NCBI GenBank assembly: GCA_016867235.1
Contig: VGJY01000018.1
Coordinates: forward strand, 1-36,361
Length of the DNA stretch: 36,361 nt
Source: Candidatus Tanganyikabacteria bacterium
GTDB taxonomy: Bacteria; Cyanobacteriota; Sericytochromatia; S15B-MN24; VGJW01
Reading direction: 5' to 3'
Shown here: one piece after another, positions 25,089 through 33,793 of the stretch
Layout of the letters: every line of letters begins with the position of its first letter
Numbering within the stretch: the stretch's first letter is position 1
Translations under genes and position numbers: made by a program
Notes under the pieces: model-generated
What the model was told of the DNA's origin: nothing
Seen by the model: the letters and a program-made list of their open reading frames with translations, nothing else
Database searches by the model: none

Positions 25089-25873
25089 CCGCGGTCGTAT
25101 CGGTCGCCCAGCTTGCCGTGCGAGACGGCGACTTCGCGGGCAACCTCGCGCTGGCCAGAAGCGCAGCCGGGGAAGCGGCCGCCCGCGGGAGCGACCTGCT
25201 GGTCTTGCCGGAGCTCTGGCTTTCCGGGCAGGCCCTGGAGACCGCGACGGCGACGGCCCTGCGGGAAGGCGACGAACGCGCCGAGCAACTGGCGGCGATT
25301 GCCCGCGATTCCGGCATGATGGTGGCGGGAAGCGTCCTGGCGGCGGCTTCCGGCCGGCCCCGCAACAGGCTCATGATCCACGACTCCATGGGCAAGGTCG
25401 TCGCCACCTACGACAAGGTGCACCTGTTCGGGCTCATGGCCGAGGACCGCCATCTCGCCCCGGGCGATCGCGCGGTGGTGGCCGACCTCGGCTGGTGCAG
25501 GGCCGGCCTGGCCATCTGTTACGACCTCCGCTTTCCCGACCTCTTCGGGCGTCTGGTCCGAGACGGCGCGGACGTCGTCATCATCCCGGCGGCCTGGCCG
25601 CGCGTCCGGATCGCTCACTGGCTCGCCCTGGTGCGGGCGCGAGCCATCGAGAGCCAGTTGTATGTCGTGGCCTGCAACCGCACCGGCGAGCACGCCGGCA
25701 TGGAGTTCGGCGGGCACTCGCTGGTCGTCGATCCCTGGGGCGACGTCTTGCACCAGTCGGAAGGCGACCCGGGCATGTTCACCGTGACGCTCGATCTGGC
25801 CCGCGTGGCCGAAGTCCGCGCTAGCTTGCCGGTGGCGAAGGACCGGCGCCCGGACGTCTACGGGCCGCCCTGA
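25085..25873 (+). CDS. Carbon-nitrogen hydrolase (nitrilase/omega-amidase family)
   Basis: A 262-aa nitrilase-superfamily amidohydrolase with the complete catalytic triad: Glu43 in LPELWLSG, Lys111 in YDKVHLFG and Cys145 in AICYDLRFP. This organisation is that of Nit2/omega-amidase-type enzymes, which hydrolyse amides of small dicarboxylate-like substrates. The start GTG 25085 overlaps the stop of the secreted protein gene by four bases, so it is coupled to it. Its 3' end runs 16 bases into the convergent arrestin-like gene. The substrate cannot be told from sequence. Confidence 0.9.
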   Translation: MTAVVSVAQLAVRDGDFAGNLALARSAAGEAAARGSDLLVLPELWLSGQALETATATALREGDERAEQLAAIARDSGMMVAGSVLAAASGRPRNRLMIHDSMGKVVATYDKVHLFGLMAEDRHLAPGDRAVVADLGWCRAGLAICYDLRFPDLFGRLVRDGADVVIIPAAWPRVRIAHWLALVRARAIESQLYVVACNRTGEHAGMEFGGHSLVVDPWGDVLHQSEGDPGMFTVTLDLARVAEVRASLPVAKDRRPDVYGPP

Positions 25874-27204
25874 AGCTCGGGCGGCAAGTCGTCGGAGGCG
25901 GCCAGCAAGGCCTGCAGACCGGCCGGGGTTTCCTTCCTGGCGGGCTCCTCGGGGGGCGCCGCCGGCGGGTCGTTCCCGGCCGCAGGCGCCTGGGCCGGTT
26001 CGGTCGCGGCGGCAGCGGGATCTGCACCGGTCGCGGCGGCAGCGGGCTCTGCACCGGTCGCGGCGGCTGCGGGCTCCGCTGCGCCCCGGGCCTCCTCGAT
26101 CTCTTCCAGGAGGCCCGGTTCGTCGCCAGGCGGCGGGGCCACGGGTCGAACCGTGACGCGAAACTTCCGGGCGAACTCGGGCTGGCCGGCGATGCGGACC
26201 AGGAAGCGCACGAACCAGATCACGGCGTGGTGCTCGGCCTCGAAGGTCGGCGCGGCGTCGCGCGGGACGTAGAGGATCCCCTTGGCCGCGGCCGCGACGC
26301 CTTTGCGGAGTTCCCGGGGGCCAGCCATCTGGTACTCGGTCTCGCCGGCGCGGGCCGTCTTCCAGGTGCCCGGCTCGGATCGCCGGCCGGCGACGAACAC
26401 CCGTTCCTCGCGGAAGAGCGAGACCCAGATCCCTTCGAGCTTGCCCTTGTACCGCGGCCGGAACTCGATTTCGCAAGCCAGGGCATCGCCGGGCAGGGCC
26501 ACCTGCGGGGATAAATCATGGCGAGACGCGCCAAGCGGCCCCAGCCGCCAGTCCGCGAGCACCTGCCAGCCCATCATGCCCAGCCCGACTCCCATGCCGC
26601 CGATCGAGATCAAGAACGGCGCGAGGAACGGGGAATCCTGGCCGAAGACGAGCCGCGTCATGACCGGCAGGGGCAGATCCGCCACGGCCCCCAGCAACAC
26701 GGCGAACATTGCCAGGCCGAGCCCGGTGAAGCACAGACCGACAAGCAGCCACCAGTATGGTTCGGAGGGCGAGCGCGCATCGCTCCTGATGGGCGGCGGC
26801 GCCGCGTACGTCGGGCCATGGTCGGGCGTGGCGCCCTCGGCGGCAACGACCTGGATCTCCCGCTCTGCTGTCTCGTCGGCATGCCGCAGATCGGCATGCG
26901 CGCGCAGGAACCACGCCACCGAGAAGGTCTCGCCCTCCCACGAGACCGGCCCGGCCGGCGCCTTGAAGCGAAAAGGGAATGCCTCTTTGTGGCCCGCGGG
27001 CCAGGCGCCGCGGAACAACTCGACCTGCGAGGTCCCGCCTTGCTCGGGCACGCCTTCGCCTTGCGTCCGCCACTCGCAGGAGACGACCAGCCGCTGGCAA
27101 TGGCAGTCGGCGTCCACGGCGACCGCGATGCGGCCGGCGATGGCGTCGCCCAGGCGGTAGGCCCGCGGCGCGCCGTCAAGCTTGATCTCGAGCCGGCAAC
27201 CCAT
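25858..27204 (-). CDS. Arrestin-like membrane protein with Ala/Thr/Pro repeat tail
   Basis: A 448-aa protein with an arrestin-like N-domain (about 1-130; LEIKLDGAPRAYRLGDAIAGRIAV, then CEWRTQG and FRFKAPAGPVSWEG). Two membrane helices follow (about 150-175 and 190-215; YWWLLVGLCFTGLGLAMFAVLL and a Gly-rich one). A second arrestin-like domain follows (about 230-370; GDALACEIEFRPRYKGKLEGIWVSL). The C-terminal tail contains AAAATGAEP-type repeats. Similar N-domains occur in the Spo0M/Vps26-like family in bacteria. ATG 27204 has no strong ribosome site. A 16-base 3' overlap with the nitrilase gene is present. Function is unknown. Confidence 0.65.
   Translation of the reverse strand: MGCRLEIKLDGAPRAYRLGDAIAGRIAVAVDADCHCQRLVVSCEWRTQGEGVPEQGGTSQVELFRGAWPAGHKEAFPFRFKAPAGPVSWEGETFSVAWFLRAHADLRHADETAEREIQVVAAEGATPDHGPTYAAPPPIRSDARSPSEPYWWLLVGLCFTGLGLAMFAVLLGAVADLPLPVMTRLVFGQDSPFLAPFLISIGGMGVGLGMMGWQVLADWRLGPLGASRHDLSPQVALPGDALACEIEFRPRYKGKLEGIWVSLFREERVFVAGRRSEPGTWKTARAGETEYQMAGPRELRKGVAAAAKGILYVPRDAAPTFEAEHHAVIWFVRFLVRIAGQPEFARKFRVTVRPVAPPPGDEPGLLEEIEEARGAAEPAAAATGAEPAAAATGADPAAAATEPAQAPAAGNDPPAAPPEEPARKETPAGLQALLAASDDLPPELQGGP
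26001..26081. repeat. 27-bp tandem repeat inside the arrestin-like gene
   Basis: Three copies start at 26001, 26028 and 26055, each beginning CGGTCGCGGCGGC; the first two differ at one base and the third is diverged. On the minus strand they encode AAAATGA-type nine-residue units in the Ala/Pro-rich C-terminal tail. The repeat is in frame and probably varies in copy number by slippage. Confidence 0.75.
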
Positions 27205-27263: not shown

Positions 27264-28535
27264 TCAGTTGCCCGCAGGGAGCGCCGCGCGTTCGGGCTGC
27301 ACGGCTGCATCGTCCGGCCTCGGCGCGAGGTCGATCGGCAATGTGAACCAGAATTCGCTGCCGGCACCCGGCCGGCTCTCGACCCCGATGCTGCCGCCAT
27401 GGGCTTCCACGATCGACCGGCTGATGGCCAGCCCGAGCCCCGTGCCTGCCTGGAGCCGCCCGGCCGGGAGCTGGCTGAACCCCTGGAAGAGTTTCCCGAT
27501 GTCTTCCGGATCGATGCCGATGCCCGTATCCTCGACGCAACAGCGGACGGTGTCATTCGCCGTGGTGATGGCGACGCGCACGGTCCCGCCGGCCGGCGTG
27601 AACTTGACGGCGTTGTGGATCAAGTTCGTAAGGACCTGGTCGATGCGTTGCGGATCCAGCGCGGCCAGAGTGGCCGATTCGGGCAAGTCCAGAAGGAGTT
27701 CCACCTGGCGCTCGGCGGCAAACGGCGCCAGGCTCTCCCCGACTTCGCGCACCTGGTCGGCCAGATCGCCGGGCTGCAGCCGCAATGTGAACGTGCCGGC
27801 CTCCATGGCCGCGTAGTCGAGAAGGTCGTTGACCAGGGACCCGAGGCGCCGGGACGCTCGCCGGATCTGGGCCACGAACTCGCGCTGCTGCTCGGTCAGC
27901 GGGCCACCGATCTCGTCTTCGAGGAATTCCAGGAAGCCGAGCACGGAGGACAGGGGAGTGCGCAGGTCGTGGGACACCGCGTTGACGAAGTGTCGACGCA
28001 GCCGGTCGACCTCCTTGAGATCGGCAAGATCCCGGTAGGCGACGCGAAGCTCCTGGTAGAGCAGCGACGTGTCTTCCAGCGCGGCGACGAGTGTCTCGAA
28101 ACCCTTGCGACGGCGGGCACTCTGGGTTTCGAGCGCTTCGGTCGTGCCCCGCACGAGCTCCATGGTGGCGCGAAGCTCCGCCGATACCCGCTGCCACTCC
28201 ACCAGGCGCCCGTCGTAGGGCGAGGGAATGCCGAGGCTCCCCTTGCGCGAACTGGCGAGCGCCTGCTCGAGCCGGTCGATAGGCTGGAGCACCCCGGTCT
28301 TCAGGAACGCGGCGAACCAGATCGTGCCGATCAGCATCACCCCCGACACTGTGATGATCGCAGCGCGCAAGGCTATTTCCGCGGCTCCCATCGGCCGACC
28401 GGACAGCGACCCGAGTTCGAAGAGCAGCATGGCCGCGGCCAGGATGAGCGCGAAGGCCAGGCCGAGAATCCAGGTGAAGGAGGTCAGGCGGGAGCGGAGG
28501 CTCGCGGGGAACCTACCCGGCCGATCAGGATTCAT
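27264..28535 (-). CDS. Sensor histidine kinase partner of the adjacent membrane sensor
   Basis: A 423-aa two-component kinase. Two N-terminal membrane helices (about 20-38 and 57-78) flank a short external loop (about 39-56) too small for a ligand domain. A linker with HAMP-like and coiled-coil character (about 81-178) leads to HisKA with the H-box VSHDLRTPLS (His189). HATPase motifs follow: N-box Asn308, G1 DTGIG (336-340) and G2 GTGLGL (364-369). The sensor input therefore may come from the neighbouring protein, whose gene overlaps by 11 bases. No response regulator gene is nearby. Confidence 0.9.
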   Translation of the reverse strand: MNPDRPGRFPASLRSRLTSFTWILGLAFALILAAAMLLFELGSLSGRPMGAAEIALRAAIITVSGVMLIGTIWFAAFLKTGVLQPIDRLEQALASSRKGSLGIPSPYDGRLVEWQRVSAELRATMELVRGTTEALETQSARRRKGFETLVAALEDTSLLYQELRVAYRDLADLKEVDRLRRHFVNAVSHDLRTPLSSVLGFLEFLEDEIGGPLTEQQREFVAQIRRASRRLGSLVNDLLDYAAMEAGTFTLRLQPGDLADQVREVGESLAPFAAERQVELLLDLPESATLAALDPQRIDQVLTNLIHNAVKFTPAGGTVRVAITTANDTVRCCVEDTGIGIDPEDIGKLFQGFSQLPAGRLQAGTGLGLAISRSIVEAHGGSIGVESRPGAGSEFWFTLPIDLAPRPDDAAVQPERAALPAGN

Positions 28536-29115
28536 GGGCGAGAGCCTGCAACTTGCCCTCGAGGGCGGCGACCTCGGCTCGCAGATCGCGAATGCGCTCC
28601 TCGCGATTGGCCAGCAGTTCGGTGGCCCGATCGGTGAGGGCGGCTTGCTGCTGAAGGTCTTCGTTGAGGCGCGCCAGGTTGCGATTGGCTTCCTCCAGCG
28701 CCGCGGCCTTGTCCGAGAGGACCTGCTTGGAGCGCGCTTCGAGGTAATCCTCGACCGTTCCCGAGCGCAGCAGCTGCGGTATCACCATCCCGAGCACCAC
28801 GATCGTCGCGACGGCCGCGGTCGCGGTGAGGCCATCCAGCATGGCGTCGGTCCAGTAGAAGGGCCACCAGATCGTGACGATGTCCATCACGTGGGTGGTG
28901 CCGCAAAGGAAGAAGGTCGAGAACAGGAACAGCGAGACCAGCAAGGGGTTGGGGACGTCCGGCCGGCGGCCGAAGAAGACAAGGATGATGCCGGCCGTCG
29001 CGTAATACGCAAGTGCGATCAGGCTGTTGAACCCGACCACGGCCGCGATGAGCCAGGGCTGCCAGAGAAAGCACATGCCGTGCGGCATGAACTGGTCAGC
29101 GAGCTCGTGAATCAT
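28525..29115 (-). CDS. Stand-alone ethylene-receptor-like membrane sensor with coiled coil
   Basis: A 196-aa protein with three membrane helices (about 20-48, 58-85 and 90-115) and a long coiled coil (about 120-192). The helices match the ethylene-receptor sensor domain. LIALAYY (33-38) corresponds to the ETR1 LALAYF segment, and CGTTH (71-75) corresponds to CGATH with copper-coordinating Cys65/His69. The PHGMCFLW start is shared with bacterial relatives. The positions of ETR1 Asp25 and Ile62 are Asn30 and Phe68 here. No kinase domain is present, but the overlapping downstream gene encodes one. ATG 29115 has GGGGGTGA upstream. Ligand is unproven. Confidence 0.75.
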   Translation of the reverse strand: MIHELADQFMPHGMCFLWQPWLIAAVVGFNSLIALAYYATAGIILVFFGRRPDVPNPLLVSLFLFSTFFLCGTTHVMDIVTIWWPFYWTDAMLDGLTATAAVATIVVLGMVIPQLLRSGTVEDYLEARSKQVLSDKAAALEEANRNLARLNEDLQQQAALTDRATELLANREERIRDLRAEVAALEGKLQALAHES

Positions 29116-29173: not shown

Positions 29174-29203
29174 CGCGCGGTGGCCCGCCGGGCGGCCCGA
29201 GAG

Positions 29204-29277
29204 TGGAAGCGCTCGGATTCGAACCGAGGTTGCACCGGTTATGAGCCGGGGGTCCTGGACCGCTGGACGACGCTTCC
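29204..29277 (-). tRNA. tRNA with CAT anticodon (elongator Met or Ile2)
   Basis: The minus strand folds into a cloverleaf of 74 bases. The acceptor stem GGAAGCG/CGCTTCC is perfect, with discriminator A. The D-arm is GTCC-loop-GGAC with GG in the loop. The anticodon loop is CTCATAA. The T-arm is CTCGG-TTCGAAT-CCGAG. The anticodon stem has four pairs plus one C-T mismatch at the top. CCA is not encoded. The G1-C72 pair and no GGG/CCC run in the anticodon stem argue against the initiator tRNA. CAT could be read as methionine, or isoleucine if modified by TilS. Confidence 0.85.
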
Positions 29278-29367
29278 CCCGACGAGAGGATACCGTAAAA
29301 GGCACTCGACCCGTAACTGGTGCGTAACGGCCAGACCGTAGCCTCCTTGCCACGGAGGATTTCGAAG

Positions 29368-29745
29368 ATGACCGACACGAACCACAACGGCAATCCGGCG
29401 GCGAACCTCGCCGAGATGTACGCCGAGGCCGAGAAGCTGTGGACCGGCCCGATCCAGGATTTCATGGGGAGCGAGTTCTTCGTGAAGTGGATGGAAGTCG
29501 GGCGCGACGTCTACCTCGCCCAGACCGAGATTTCCCGGGACAGCCTCGAGAAGTACTGGGAGGCGGTTCGCTTGCCGCACAAGGGCGACATCGCGAGTCT
29601 CGCCGGCCAGGTGGTGTCGATCGAGTCCAAGGTCGAGGCGCTCGAGGACGCCCTCGAGCACGTCGCCGACCGCCTCGCCCTGCTCGTCGGCATGGTCGAG
29701 AACCTCGCCCCGGCGAAGCCCGCCGGCAAGGCGGCCAAGGAGTAG
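29368..29745 (+). CDS. PHA synthase accessory subunit (short PhaE/PhaR or phasin-like)
   Basis: A 125-aa protein directly upstream of phaC. ATG 29368 has CGGAGG about 10 bases upstream. The N-terminal half is helical and aromatic (EKLWTGPIQDFMGSEFFVKWMEVGRDVY), like phasins and PhaE. The C-terminal part (VVSIESKVEALEDALEHVADRL) is a coiled coil like the end of PhaE. PhaE of class III synthases is about 300-350 aa, so this would be a truncated or minimal form, nearer PhaR. It ends exactly where the synthase gene begins, so they must be coexpressed. Confidence 0.7.
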   Translation: MTDTNHNGNPAANLAEMYAEAEKLWTGPIQDFMGSEFFVKWMEVGRDVYLAQTEISRDSLEKYWEAVRLPHKGDIASLAGQVVSIESKVEALEDALEHVADRLALLVGMVENLAPAKPAGKAAKE

Positions 29746-30762
29746 GTGGCGGTGCTGGCCGAGAATCTCCTCAAGCTGCATGCGAGCCCGCCCGTGGGCA
29801 TGTCCCCCCGCGAGCTGGTATGGACGAAGAACAAGGCGCGCCTGTACCGCTACGCCGCGCCAGGCGGCATCCGGCACAAGACGCCGCTGCTGTTCGTCTA
29901 CGCCCTGATCAACAAGCCCTACATCCTGGACCTGACACCGGGAAACAGCTTGATCGAGAGCCTCGCGGCCGCCGGGTACGACGTCTTCCTCCTCGACTGG
30001 GGGATCCCGGGCGAGGAGGATGCCGGCCTCGGTTTCGAGAATTACGTGCTGGAATACCTGCCGCGCGCGGCCAGGCAGGTGCTCGAGAAGTCGGGATCGG
30101 ACCGATTCTCGCTCTTCGGCTACTGCATGGGCGGCACGATCTGCGCCATGTACGCCGCGACACACCCCGGTCCCGAGCTGGCGAACCTGGTGCTCCTGAC
30201 GAGCCCCATCGACTTCTCGGAAGCGGGCCTCTACTCGGCGTGGCTCGATCCGGCCCACTTCGACGTGGAGCGCGTGGCGCGCACGCTCAAGCTCGTTCCC
30301 CCCGAGATGCTGGATCTCGGGGCCAAGCTCCTCAAGCCCCTCCAGAACTACGTCGGCCCGTACGTGCGGCTCCTGGAAAAGATCGAGGATGCCGAGTTCG
30401 TGAAGGGCTGGCAGGTGATGCACCACTGGGTCAACGACGGCGTGCCATTCCCGGGCGAGGCCTATCGCCAGTGGGTACGGCACTTCTACCAGGAGAACCG
30501 GCTGATCCGCGGCGAACTGGAGCTCCGCGGGGTGCCGGTTCGCCTGGGAAACATCCGCTGCAGCGTCCTGAACGTCTACGCGGAACTGGACCACATCGTC
30601 CCGCCCGCGATGGCATTGCCGCTGCTCGACCGGGTCGGCAGCACCGACAAGACCCTGCTGCCCATCAACGCCGGACATGTGGGCGTCGTCGCGGGACGCA
30701 CGGCGCACAGGCAGTTCATCCCGAAGCTGGAGGCATGGTTGCGGATACGCAGCCAGGGCTGA
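29746..30762 (+). CDS. phaC: Class III-type polyhydroxyalkanoate synthase subunit PhaC
   Basis: A 338-aa synthase of the alpha/beta-hydrolase fold, which polymerises (R)-hydroxyacyl-CoA into polyester on granules. The lipase-box variant is GYCMGG with Cys127. The other catalytic residues are Asp282 in AELDHIVPP and His311 in NAGHVGV. Length fits class III/IV PhaC (about 350 aa) better than class I (about 580 aa). GTG 29746 follows directly on the TAG of the accessory gene; a GTG at 29752 lies nine bases after AAGGAG and may be the true start (two residues shorter). Context with the PhaE-like protein agrees. Confidence 0.92.
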
Positions 30763-30865
30763 CAAGGCAACCAGCGATCCGCCCGAAGGGCTCCGGCCAA
30801 TGCTTTCCTTGCCCGGAAGGCGAGCCCGCGGTACTTTTGGTGCTTACCCACTAGCCTGGAAAGGA

Positions 30866-30881
30866 CAACCGATGACGGTTG
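30866..30881 (+). promoter_or_regulatory. Hairpin with the malate synthase start codon in its loop
   Basis: CAACCG (30866-30871) pairs perfectly with CGGTTG (30876-30881), leaving ATGA with the ATG start in the loop. The ribosome site (AAGGA, 30861-30865) lies just outside the stem. Such a structure could modulate initiation, but a 6-bp stem may also be chance. Confidence 0.4.
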
Positions 30882-32467
30882 AAGTCGCGACGGCGCGACC
30901 CGCGCAGCTTGCGCGCGGGTGCCCCCGGGGCCCCGGCTGCGAGCGCCTGCTCACCCCGGAAGCCATGGCTTTCCTCGGGAAACTGCACGCCGCGTTCGAG
31001 ACGCGCCGGCGCGATCTGCTGGAAGCGCGCGCCTTGCGCCAGCGTCGCCTCGATGCCGGCGAATTGCCGGATTTCCTGCCCCAGACGCGCCTGCTGCGGG
31101 AGGGCGAGTGGCGGGTGGCCGACGCGCCCCCCGATCTGCAACGGCGCACCGTGGAGATCACGGGTCCGGTCGAGCGCAAGATGATGATAAACGCGCTGAA
31201 CTCGGGCGCCGACTGCTTCATGGCGGATTTCGAGGACGCCAACTCCCCGACCTGGGACAACGTCGTGGCGGGCCAGATCAACTGCCAGGACGCCGTGCGC
31301 CGGACGCTTTCGTTCGAGAGCGCGGATGGCCGGGAGTATCGCCTCGCGGACAGGGTCGCCACGCTCATGGTGCGGCCCCGAGGCTGGCATCTGGTCGAGA
31401 AGCACGTGGTCGTGGACGACGAGGTCGTATCCGGATCCCTGTTCGATTTCGGCCTTTACTTCTTCCACAACGCCCGAGAACTGCTGGCCCGCGGCTCGGG
31501 GCCTTACTTCTACCTGCCCAAGCTCGAGAGCCACCACGAGGCGCGCCTCTGGAACGACGTCTTCGACTTCGCGCAGGACGAACTGGGCATTCCCCGCGGG
31601 ACCATCCGGGCGACCGTGCTGATCGAGACGATCCTGGCCGCACTCGAGATGGAGGAGATCCTCTTCGAGTTGCGCGAGCACTCGGCGGGCCTCAACGCGG
31701 GTCGCTGGGACTACATCTTCAGCTGCATCAAGAAGTTCCGGAACCGCCCGGGCCTCGTCTTCCCCGACCGCGCCGCGATCACGATGACGGTCCCGTTCAT
31801 GCGGGCGTACACCGACCTGCTCGTCAGGACGTGCCACAAGCGCGGGGCCCATGCCATCGGCGGCATGGCGGCCTTCATCCCGAGCCGCAAGGATGCCGCG
31901 GTGAACTCCACGGCACTGGGAAAGGTGCGCGAGGACAAGGATCGCGAGGCCGGCGACGCGTTCGACGGGACCTGGGTCGCGCATCCGGACCTCGTGGCCG
32001 TGGCCGGCGAGTCTTTCCGCCGGCTGTTGGGCGACCGCCCGCACCAGATCGCGCGACGCCGCGAGGACGTATCCGTCGCGGCAGGCGACCTCCTTGCCTT
32101 CGAGATCGCCGGGGGCCAGGTGACCGAAGCGGGCGTGCGCAAGAACGTGAACGTCGCGCTCCAGTACCTCGATTCCTGGCTCCGGGGCATCGGCGCGGCG
32201 GCCATCCACAACCTGATGGAGGACGCGGCCACGGCAGAGATTTCCCGGGCGCAGCTATGGCAGTGGCTTCACGGCGGTGCGCGCCTCGGGTCCGGCGAAA
32301 CCGTGGACGAGACCCTCTACAGGCGCATTCGCGGCGAGGAACTGGCGGCCCTGGGAGGGGCCGCCACGGGGCGCCTTGCGGAAGCGGCACGCCTGCTCGA
32401 CGGCCTGGTCCTGTCGGGCGAGTTCGCCGAGTTCCTCACTGTTTCGGCTTACGCATCGTTGGATTAG
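30872..32467 (+). CDS. aceB: Malate synthase A
   Basis: A 531-aa malate synthase that condenses glyoxylate with acetyl-CoA to malate in the glyoxylate shunt. The family signature [16 protein letters not shown] is present near residue 270. The catalytic Asp is Asp451 in [13 protein letters not shown], just as in the E. coli MSA motif. Length matches isoform A (about 530), not isoform G (about 720). ATG 30872 has AAGGA seven bases upstream. Isocitrate lyase follows after 15 bases, so this is an aceB-aceA operon, next to PHA synthesis genes. The flanking start region forms a hairpin. Confidence 0.95.
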
Positions 32468-32482
32468 AGGAGAGTTCTAGAG

Positions 32483-33793
<1,311 letters not shown>

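Follow-up and report, generated by a model that had tools for sequence, protein, structure and literature searches.

Can an ethylene-receptor-type sensor and its histidine kinase form one receptor while being encoded as two separate proteins? This question is raised by two overlapping genes of the window analysed here (the whole stretch of 36,361 nucleotides, which is an entire 36-kb contig of a 6.1-Mb genome). The host belongs to the order S15B-MN24 of the Sericytochromatia, a non-photosynthetic class of Cyanobacteriota. The window pair shares a three-helix transmembrane (TM) ETR domain, a CG-T-H motif and histidine-kinase signalling with ETR1 of plants, SynEtr1 (Slr1212) of Synechocystis and AzoEtr1 of Azospirillum. 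However, these receptors are single chains in which PAS/GAF and kinase parts are fused (PMC11819568, PMC7700396), whereas the window has two chains; according to an open-access review, the output domains of ETR-domain proteins vary. Open-access work on ethylene perception concerns fused receptors, where the link between copper site and kinase cannot be separated. A split, two-protein ETR receptor is undescribed in this literature, which has fused forms only; an earlier mention elsewhere is possible. Our analysis makes it probable that the two genes specify one receptor in two chains, i.e., a copper-site membrane sensor acting in trans on a kinase of the intramembrane-sensing type. A two-protein receptor is well supported by the sequence comparisons described below, from which we infer the complex itself.

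Two overlapping genes for a sensor and a kinase

The sensor gene (28525..29115, minus strand) encodes a protein of 196 amino acids consisting of an ETR1_N domain and a long C-terminal helix, without an output domain. In a profile search, residues 23-117 (28765..29049, minus strand) match PF25487 with an E value of 5.7e-20 and 71.8 bits, above the curated cut-off of 27, and this is the only copy of ETR1_N in the genome. The AF2 model, obtained from a 41-row alignment (pLDDT 88.7), contains helices at residues 20-50, 57-83 and 87-117, followed by an unbroken helix from 121 to 195. The first three are the TM helices of the ethylene-receptor-like domain, and the second of them carries C71 (28903-28905) and H75 (28891-28893), a putative copper-site pair (28891..28905, minus strand) equivalent to C65 and H69 of ETR1. 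Both residues lie in the CGTTH motif already given in a preliminary description of the locus, while the second motif, read there as LALAYY, is actually IALAYY. The last helix comprises 75 residues (pLDDT about 98) and reaches to the stop codon, in agreement with the earlier statement that the sensor ends in a coiled coil without a kinase; the C-terminal segment to which it belongs (residues 118-196; 28528..28764, minus strand) is the proposed coupling segment. A fold search with the sensor did not find a relative among solved structures.

The histidine kinase gene (27264..28535, minus strand) encodes 423 amino acids. HisKA (E 9e-23) and HATPase_c (E 8e-32) domains were identified by profile search in residues 180-401 (27333..27998, minus strand), and H189, the phospho-acceptor (27969-27971), as well as the N, G1 and G2 boxes are all intact, as in two-component histidine kinases. 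The membrane half of the protein (residues 1-170; 28026..28535, minus strand) is composed of two TM helices, a short loop and a cytoplasmic linker, with hydropathy placing the hydrophobic segments at about 23-41 and 60-78 and an 18-residue loop between them. The profile search did not reveal a recognisable ligand domain in the kinase, so that the two helices of its own and the lack of a visible ligand domain, both anticipated earlier, were found as described. This is the layout of intramembrane-sensing kinases, for which the loop limit is taken as under about 25 residues. The AF2 model of the kinase, obtained from two alignment rows, was poor (pLDDT 51) and was left out of the evidence.

Sensor and kinase are indeed encoded separately, as originally proposed: the two ORFs, which lie in different frames, overlap by 11 bases at the sensor stop and kinase start (28525..28535, minus strand). 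Third-position GC is 0.86 and 0.85 for the two genes. On inspection by eye, no obvious ribosome-binding site precedes the start of the kinase, which makes translational coupling of sensor and kinase likely. A promoter and terminator scan gave no promoter and, for terminators, candidate sites at close to chance level. The neighbouring genes that were checked do not include a response regulator. Beyond the kinase on the minus strand, an ORF at 25858-27180 has membrane segments predicted by eye; it belongs to no Pfam or NCBIfam family, its sole match, an arrestin-like one, staying below threshold (E 0.05). Directly upstream of the sensor gene lies a tRNA-Met (CAT) gene (29203-29277, minus strand). 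A plus-strand cluster at 29320-33793 encodes a small coil protein, then a PHA synthase-like hydrolase (PhaC_N match) and then two glyoxylate-cycle enzymes assigned by eye, malate synthase and isocitrate lyase.

The pair in other genomes

A search for the same pair in the same order, which the preliminary description had called for, was successful in G009, a genome of another family of S15B-MN24, so that the lack of co-occurrence named there as grounds for refutation did not materialise. At this locus (L032), a 193-aa ETR sensor is followed, after a gap of 4 bases, by a 560-aa kinase; the sensor sequence is that found in record DAZV01000047.1 (Candidatus Sericytochromatia bacterium S15B-MN24 CBMW_12). 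The window and G009 sensors are 58% identical, with the similarity extending through the coil (52% over the C-terminal helix), and their dN/dS is about 0.35, at a dS of about 1.05 that is near saturation. The kinases share 30% identity over the membrane half and about 45-46% over the core, the G009 protein having an N-terminus similar to that of the window kinase and one extra PAS domain. The classified neighbours are riboflavin-synthesis, MerR/TipAS and ABC genes in G009, and nitrilase-family and PHA synthase genes in the window; since they are not common to the two loci, the pair has been kept as a unit. The ORF at 25858-27180 has no counterpart among the G009 neighbours checked. Because the two genes are separate, in the same order and non-overlapping in an independent MAG, the pair is not an assembly accident, although within the Sericytochromatia it rests on two genomes, both draft assemblies in many contigs.

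When residues 1-170 of the kinase were compared with all 18 genomes of the class, a single strong homologue was obtained, namely the partner kinase of G009 (E 3.9e-12), so that in the class this membrane half occurs only beside the sensor. The next match (G003, E 7e-4) was rejected, as it falls in the HAMP region of a protein resembling a receptor. Matches to the kinase core, on the other hand, number from 8 to 99 per genome in the class, and the core of the window kinase is nearer to paralogues (61% identity, G000:C15) than to the G009 partner kinase (46%). Paralogues seem to have swapped this core, and its closeness to them suggests that the kinase half of the pair has been exchanged or has drifted. 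Taken with the restriction of the membrane half to the vicinity of the sensor, this indicates that the membrane half rather than the core travels with the sensor, as expected for a docking partner. The paralogue with the 61% identical core (L065, G000:C15:12500-18000) is a 635-aa membrane kinase of the window's genome. Kinases of G006 show 44-46% identity over more of the window kinase, but were rejected as a pair, the G006 genome being without an ETR sensor.

PF25487 exceeds its cut-off in 2 of the 10 genomes of the order and 4 of the 18 of the class, and in 87/386 Cyanobacteriota, 15/396 Nitrospirota and 28/398 Pseudomonadota. In the Cyanobacteriota and Pseudomonadota surveyed, ETR proteins are as a rule fused. 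No short frames occur among the full-domain matches of the Pseudomonadota; among the matches listed, with weaker cyanobacterial ones lying outside the survey, short ETR frames are those of the window, G009, two broken cyanobacterial genes and the Nitrospirota. Split pairs of the Nitrospirota were found five times in the sample and in two more genomes (L062, L063), giving seven loci (L060, L062, L063, L117, L118, L120 and L121). As in the window, an ETR sensor ending in a coil (here of 200-274 aa) is followed by a separate membrane kinase, and in most of these pairs a response regulator comes next; the L062 and L120 loci end soon after the kinase start, and the kinase frame of L117 is without the first helices. 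The "new architecture" first attributed to the window is therefore an exception to the fused rule of the surveyed Cyanobacteriota and Pseudomonadota, but it is not unique to the window, given the same layout in the Nitrospirota.

Some short frames turned out not to be split pairs. Those of the Cyanobacteriota (G509/G682) correspond to an interrupted ETR-GGDEF gene (L155) and a truncated kinase from an interrupted ETR-kinase gene (L156), and both could be pseudogenes or sequencing frameshifts. In the Nitrospirota, L119 (G215) and L122 (G427) appear to be fused genes that have been interrupted or shortened, and they were left out of the count; their forms are an ETR-kinase in two overlapping broken frames and a 318-aa ETR protein that has lost C65 and H69.

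A weakly resolved tree of 101 ETR domains (117 columns) shows the window and G009 sensors as sisters (100/100). Nearest to them is a fused ETR-kinase of 425 aa, L019, which comes from the same class (94/89). The branch of the window sensor is long (0.78, compared with about 0 for the G009 sensor). Five sensors of the Nitrospirota cluster together (100/99) apart from those of the Sericytochromatia, and the kinase N-termini of the two lineages are unrelated (hhalign probability 0.7%). On these two grounds, splitting probably arose at least twice, separately in Sericytochromatia and Nitrospirota. A single old split is less likely but conceivable, given the weak resolution of the deep forks.

The ligand pocket

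Seven residues of AtETR1 are needed for ethylene binding: D25, Y32, I35, P36, I62, C65 and H69 (PMC11819568, PMC6586836). The copper site is made of D25, C65 and H69 (PMC12643061); a pairing of D25 with K91 is predicted, and mutation of either D25 or C65 abolishes ethylene binding (PMC11819568). Bacterial ETR domains, i.e., those of AzoEtr1 and SynEtr1, also bind ethylene (PMC11819568). At the seven positions the window sensor has N30, Y37, T40, A41, F68, C71 and H75, so that only the Tyr, Cys and His are kept (3/7), whereas 91 of 101 bacterial ETR domains keep 6 or 7. The altered positions (28834..29028, minus strand; column counts over 101 domains) are N30 (D25), T40 (I35), A41 (P36), F68 (I62) and, in addition, D94 (K91), and an Asp at the K91 position is found in the window sensor alone (1/101). 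The change I62F, which corresponds to F68, is presumably that of the ethylene-insensitive etr1-4 allele. The G009 sensor keeps six of the seven residues, with an Asn for D25 as in 11/101 domains, and the split sensors of the Nitrospirota keep 5-7.

Judging from these residues, copper binding is plausible in the window, G009 and Nitrospirota sensors. Ethylene binding appears plausible in the Nitrospirota sensors and perhaps in that of G009, but doubtful in the window sensor because only three pocket residues are left. The label "ethylene-receptor-like" holds for the domain, which is a true ETR1_N, and is weak as far as ethylene itself is concerned. With such an altered pocket, the window sensor may respond to copper as such or to some ligand different from ethylene. 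The dN/dS of about 0.35, at a dS near saturation, speaks against simple decay. A broader scenario seems possible, if slightly less likely than not. In it, separation of ETR sensors from their kinases would have happened on two or more occasions, in Sericytochromatia and in Nitrospirota, and would have given two-protein receptors in which a copper-site membrane protein switches a separate kinase; the window pocket, with Asn and Asp for D25 and K91, would have been re-tuned to a non-ethylene signal. Such a modified pocket is a natural experiment on which signals, apart from ethylene, an ETR fold can perceive.

Proposed coupling in trans and alternative readings

In the proposed mechanism, the ETR-type protein would sit in the membrane with its three helices, Cu(I) being probably held by C71 and H75, and its 75-residue helix would extend into the cytoplasm. 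The kinase, having two TM helices and almost no outside loop, would need a partner protein in the membrane to receive its signal. Through its TM helices and/or its long helix, the sensor would contact the kinase and switch autophosphorylation at H189 in one direction or the other, after which the phosphate would pass to an unlinked response regulator. BceS, a kinase with a TM bundle and a HAMP domain, acts in complex with its partner transporter (PMC10314905), and by analogy the long helix of the sensor could lie along the kinase linker. The BceS-BceAB (PMC10314905) and LiaS-LiaF systems of Firmicutes likewise combine a two-TM kinase that has almost no outside loop with an adjacent partner membrane protein; in the window, however, this partner is an ETR-type copper-site protein rather than an ABC transporter or LiaF, and the likeness drawn here is one of layout. 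Compared with ETR1, SynEtr1 and AzoEtr1, the window kinase has TM helices of its own, three of seven pocket residues remain in the sensor and no response regulator is seen nearby; neither the window nor the G009 pair has the one-chain organisation of ethylene receptors. In natural two-chain forms, the sensing unit and the kinase can be expressed, mixed and mutated apart, and the presence of fused as well as split forms in a lineage beside the cyanobacteria bears on the assembly of plant ethylene receptors.

The evidence for a two-chain receptor consists of the sequences and their domains, the gene order, the conservation of the pair, the exclusivity of the kinase membrane half and the constraint on the sensor. 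Against it stand the occurrence of the pair in only 2/10 genomes of the order, a kinase core closer to paralogues (61%) than to the G009 kinase (46%) and the absence of a response regulator from the neighbours checked; the sensor might also act on another target or be on its way to losing its function (3/7 residues, branch 0.78). If the sensor were a homodimeric copper or gas sensor for another output, the kinase would share its operon and work alone. This is unlikely: although the kinase has its own TM helices and a core nearer to unrelated kinases of its genome than to the kinase of the G009 pair, its membrane half is found in the class only beside the sensor, the ORFs overlap, the pair is retained although the neighbours differ, and the sensor has no other output domain. 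Decay, in which a fused ETR-kinase broke and the window sensor is drifting to loss, would account for the four changed pocket residues, the unique Asp at the K91 position (1/101) and the long branch. It is nevertheless quite improbable in view of the dN/dS of about 0.35, the retention of C71, H75 and Y37, the intact kinase boxes, a kinase N-terminus that is a new two-TM module with no leftover of a fused linker, and the same split in the independent genome G009 with six of seven residues.

Whether ethylene at the Cu(I) site alters kinase output, which would make the pair, that of the window included, a true two-chain ethylene receptor, appears doubtful to us. ETR1_N family membership, the Cys/His pair, the pockets of the G009 (6/7) and Nitrospirota (5-7/7) sensors and ethylene binding by AzoEtr1 and SynEtr1 (PMC11819568) speak for it; but the window has N, T, A and F at D25, I35, P36 and I62, and in AtETR1 binding is lost upon mutation of D25 or C65 (PMC11819568), D25 being part of the copper site (PMC12643061). 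Finally, overlapping ORFs in different frames could be a fused gene broken up by an assembly or sequencing frameshift, or could give a fusion through programmed frameshifting. Either is hardly credible, as the two-gene layout recurs in G009 with a 4-base gap, the sensor has a conserved end tail, the kinase opens with a new membrane module and the stop/start context TCC-TGA has, by eye, no obvious slippery codon.

Besides their fuller pockets (5-7/7), unrelated kinase N-termini and, in most cases, adjacent response regulator, the Nitrospirota pairs differ from that of the window in their coupling motifs. Their ETR sensors end in a tail, GREx+MIxLKxExNxL, which also ends other kinase-less sensors: 16 non-ETR matches in 37 genomes and one plasmid match all lie 0-19 residues before the stop codon. 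Several adjoining kinases carry an xLNxxED (or xLNxLED) segment. Among 116 kinase-like ORFs, a small set assembled around tail sensors that makes this specificity provisional, all those scoring >10 bits for the segment adjoin a tail sensor, true partners scoring 14-50 bits and the next best ORF 1.9; the matches include loci outside training (L213, L208/L185, L218 and L211). Together, tail and segment seem to be a coupling code that two-chain receptors use generally. An apparent coupling of this type in the window pair, obtained with the window rows in the profile, was gone in the leave-out test, in which the window tail scored 15 bits and that of G009 3, compared with up to 24 for background coils and 32-68 for Nitrospirota ETR sensors; the window and G009 kinases gave no match to the LED segment. 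The heads of the tail-motif sensors (L202-L218) are solute-binding, PAS, Cache, CheB/CheR and ETR, and one tail/LED pair lies in the window's own genome (L217, G000:C232:1-8000).
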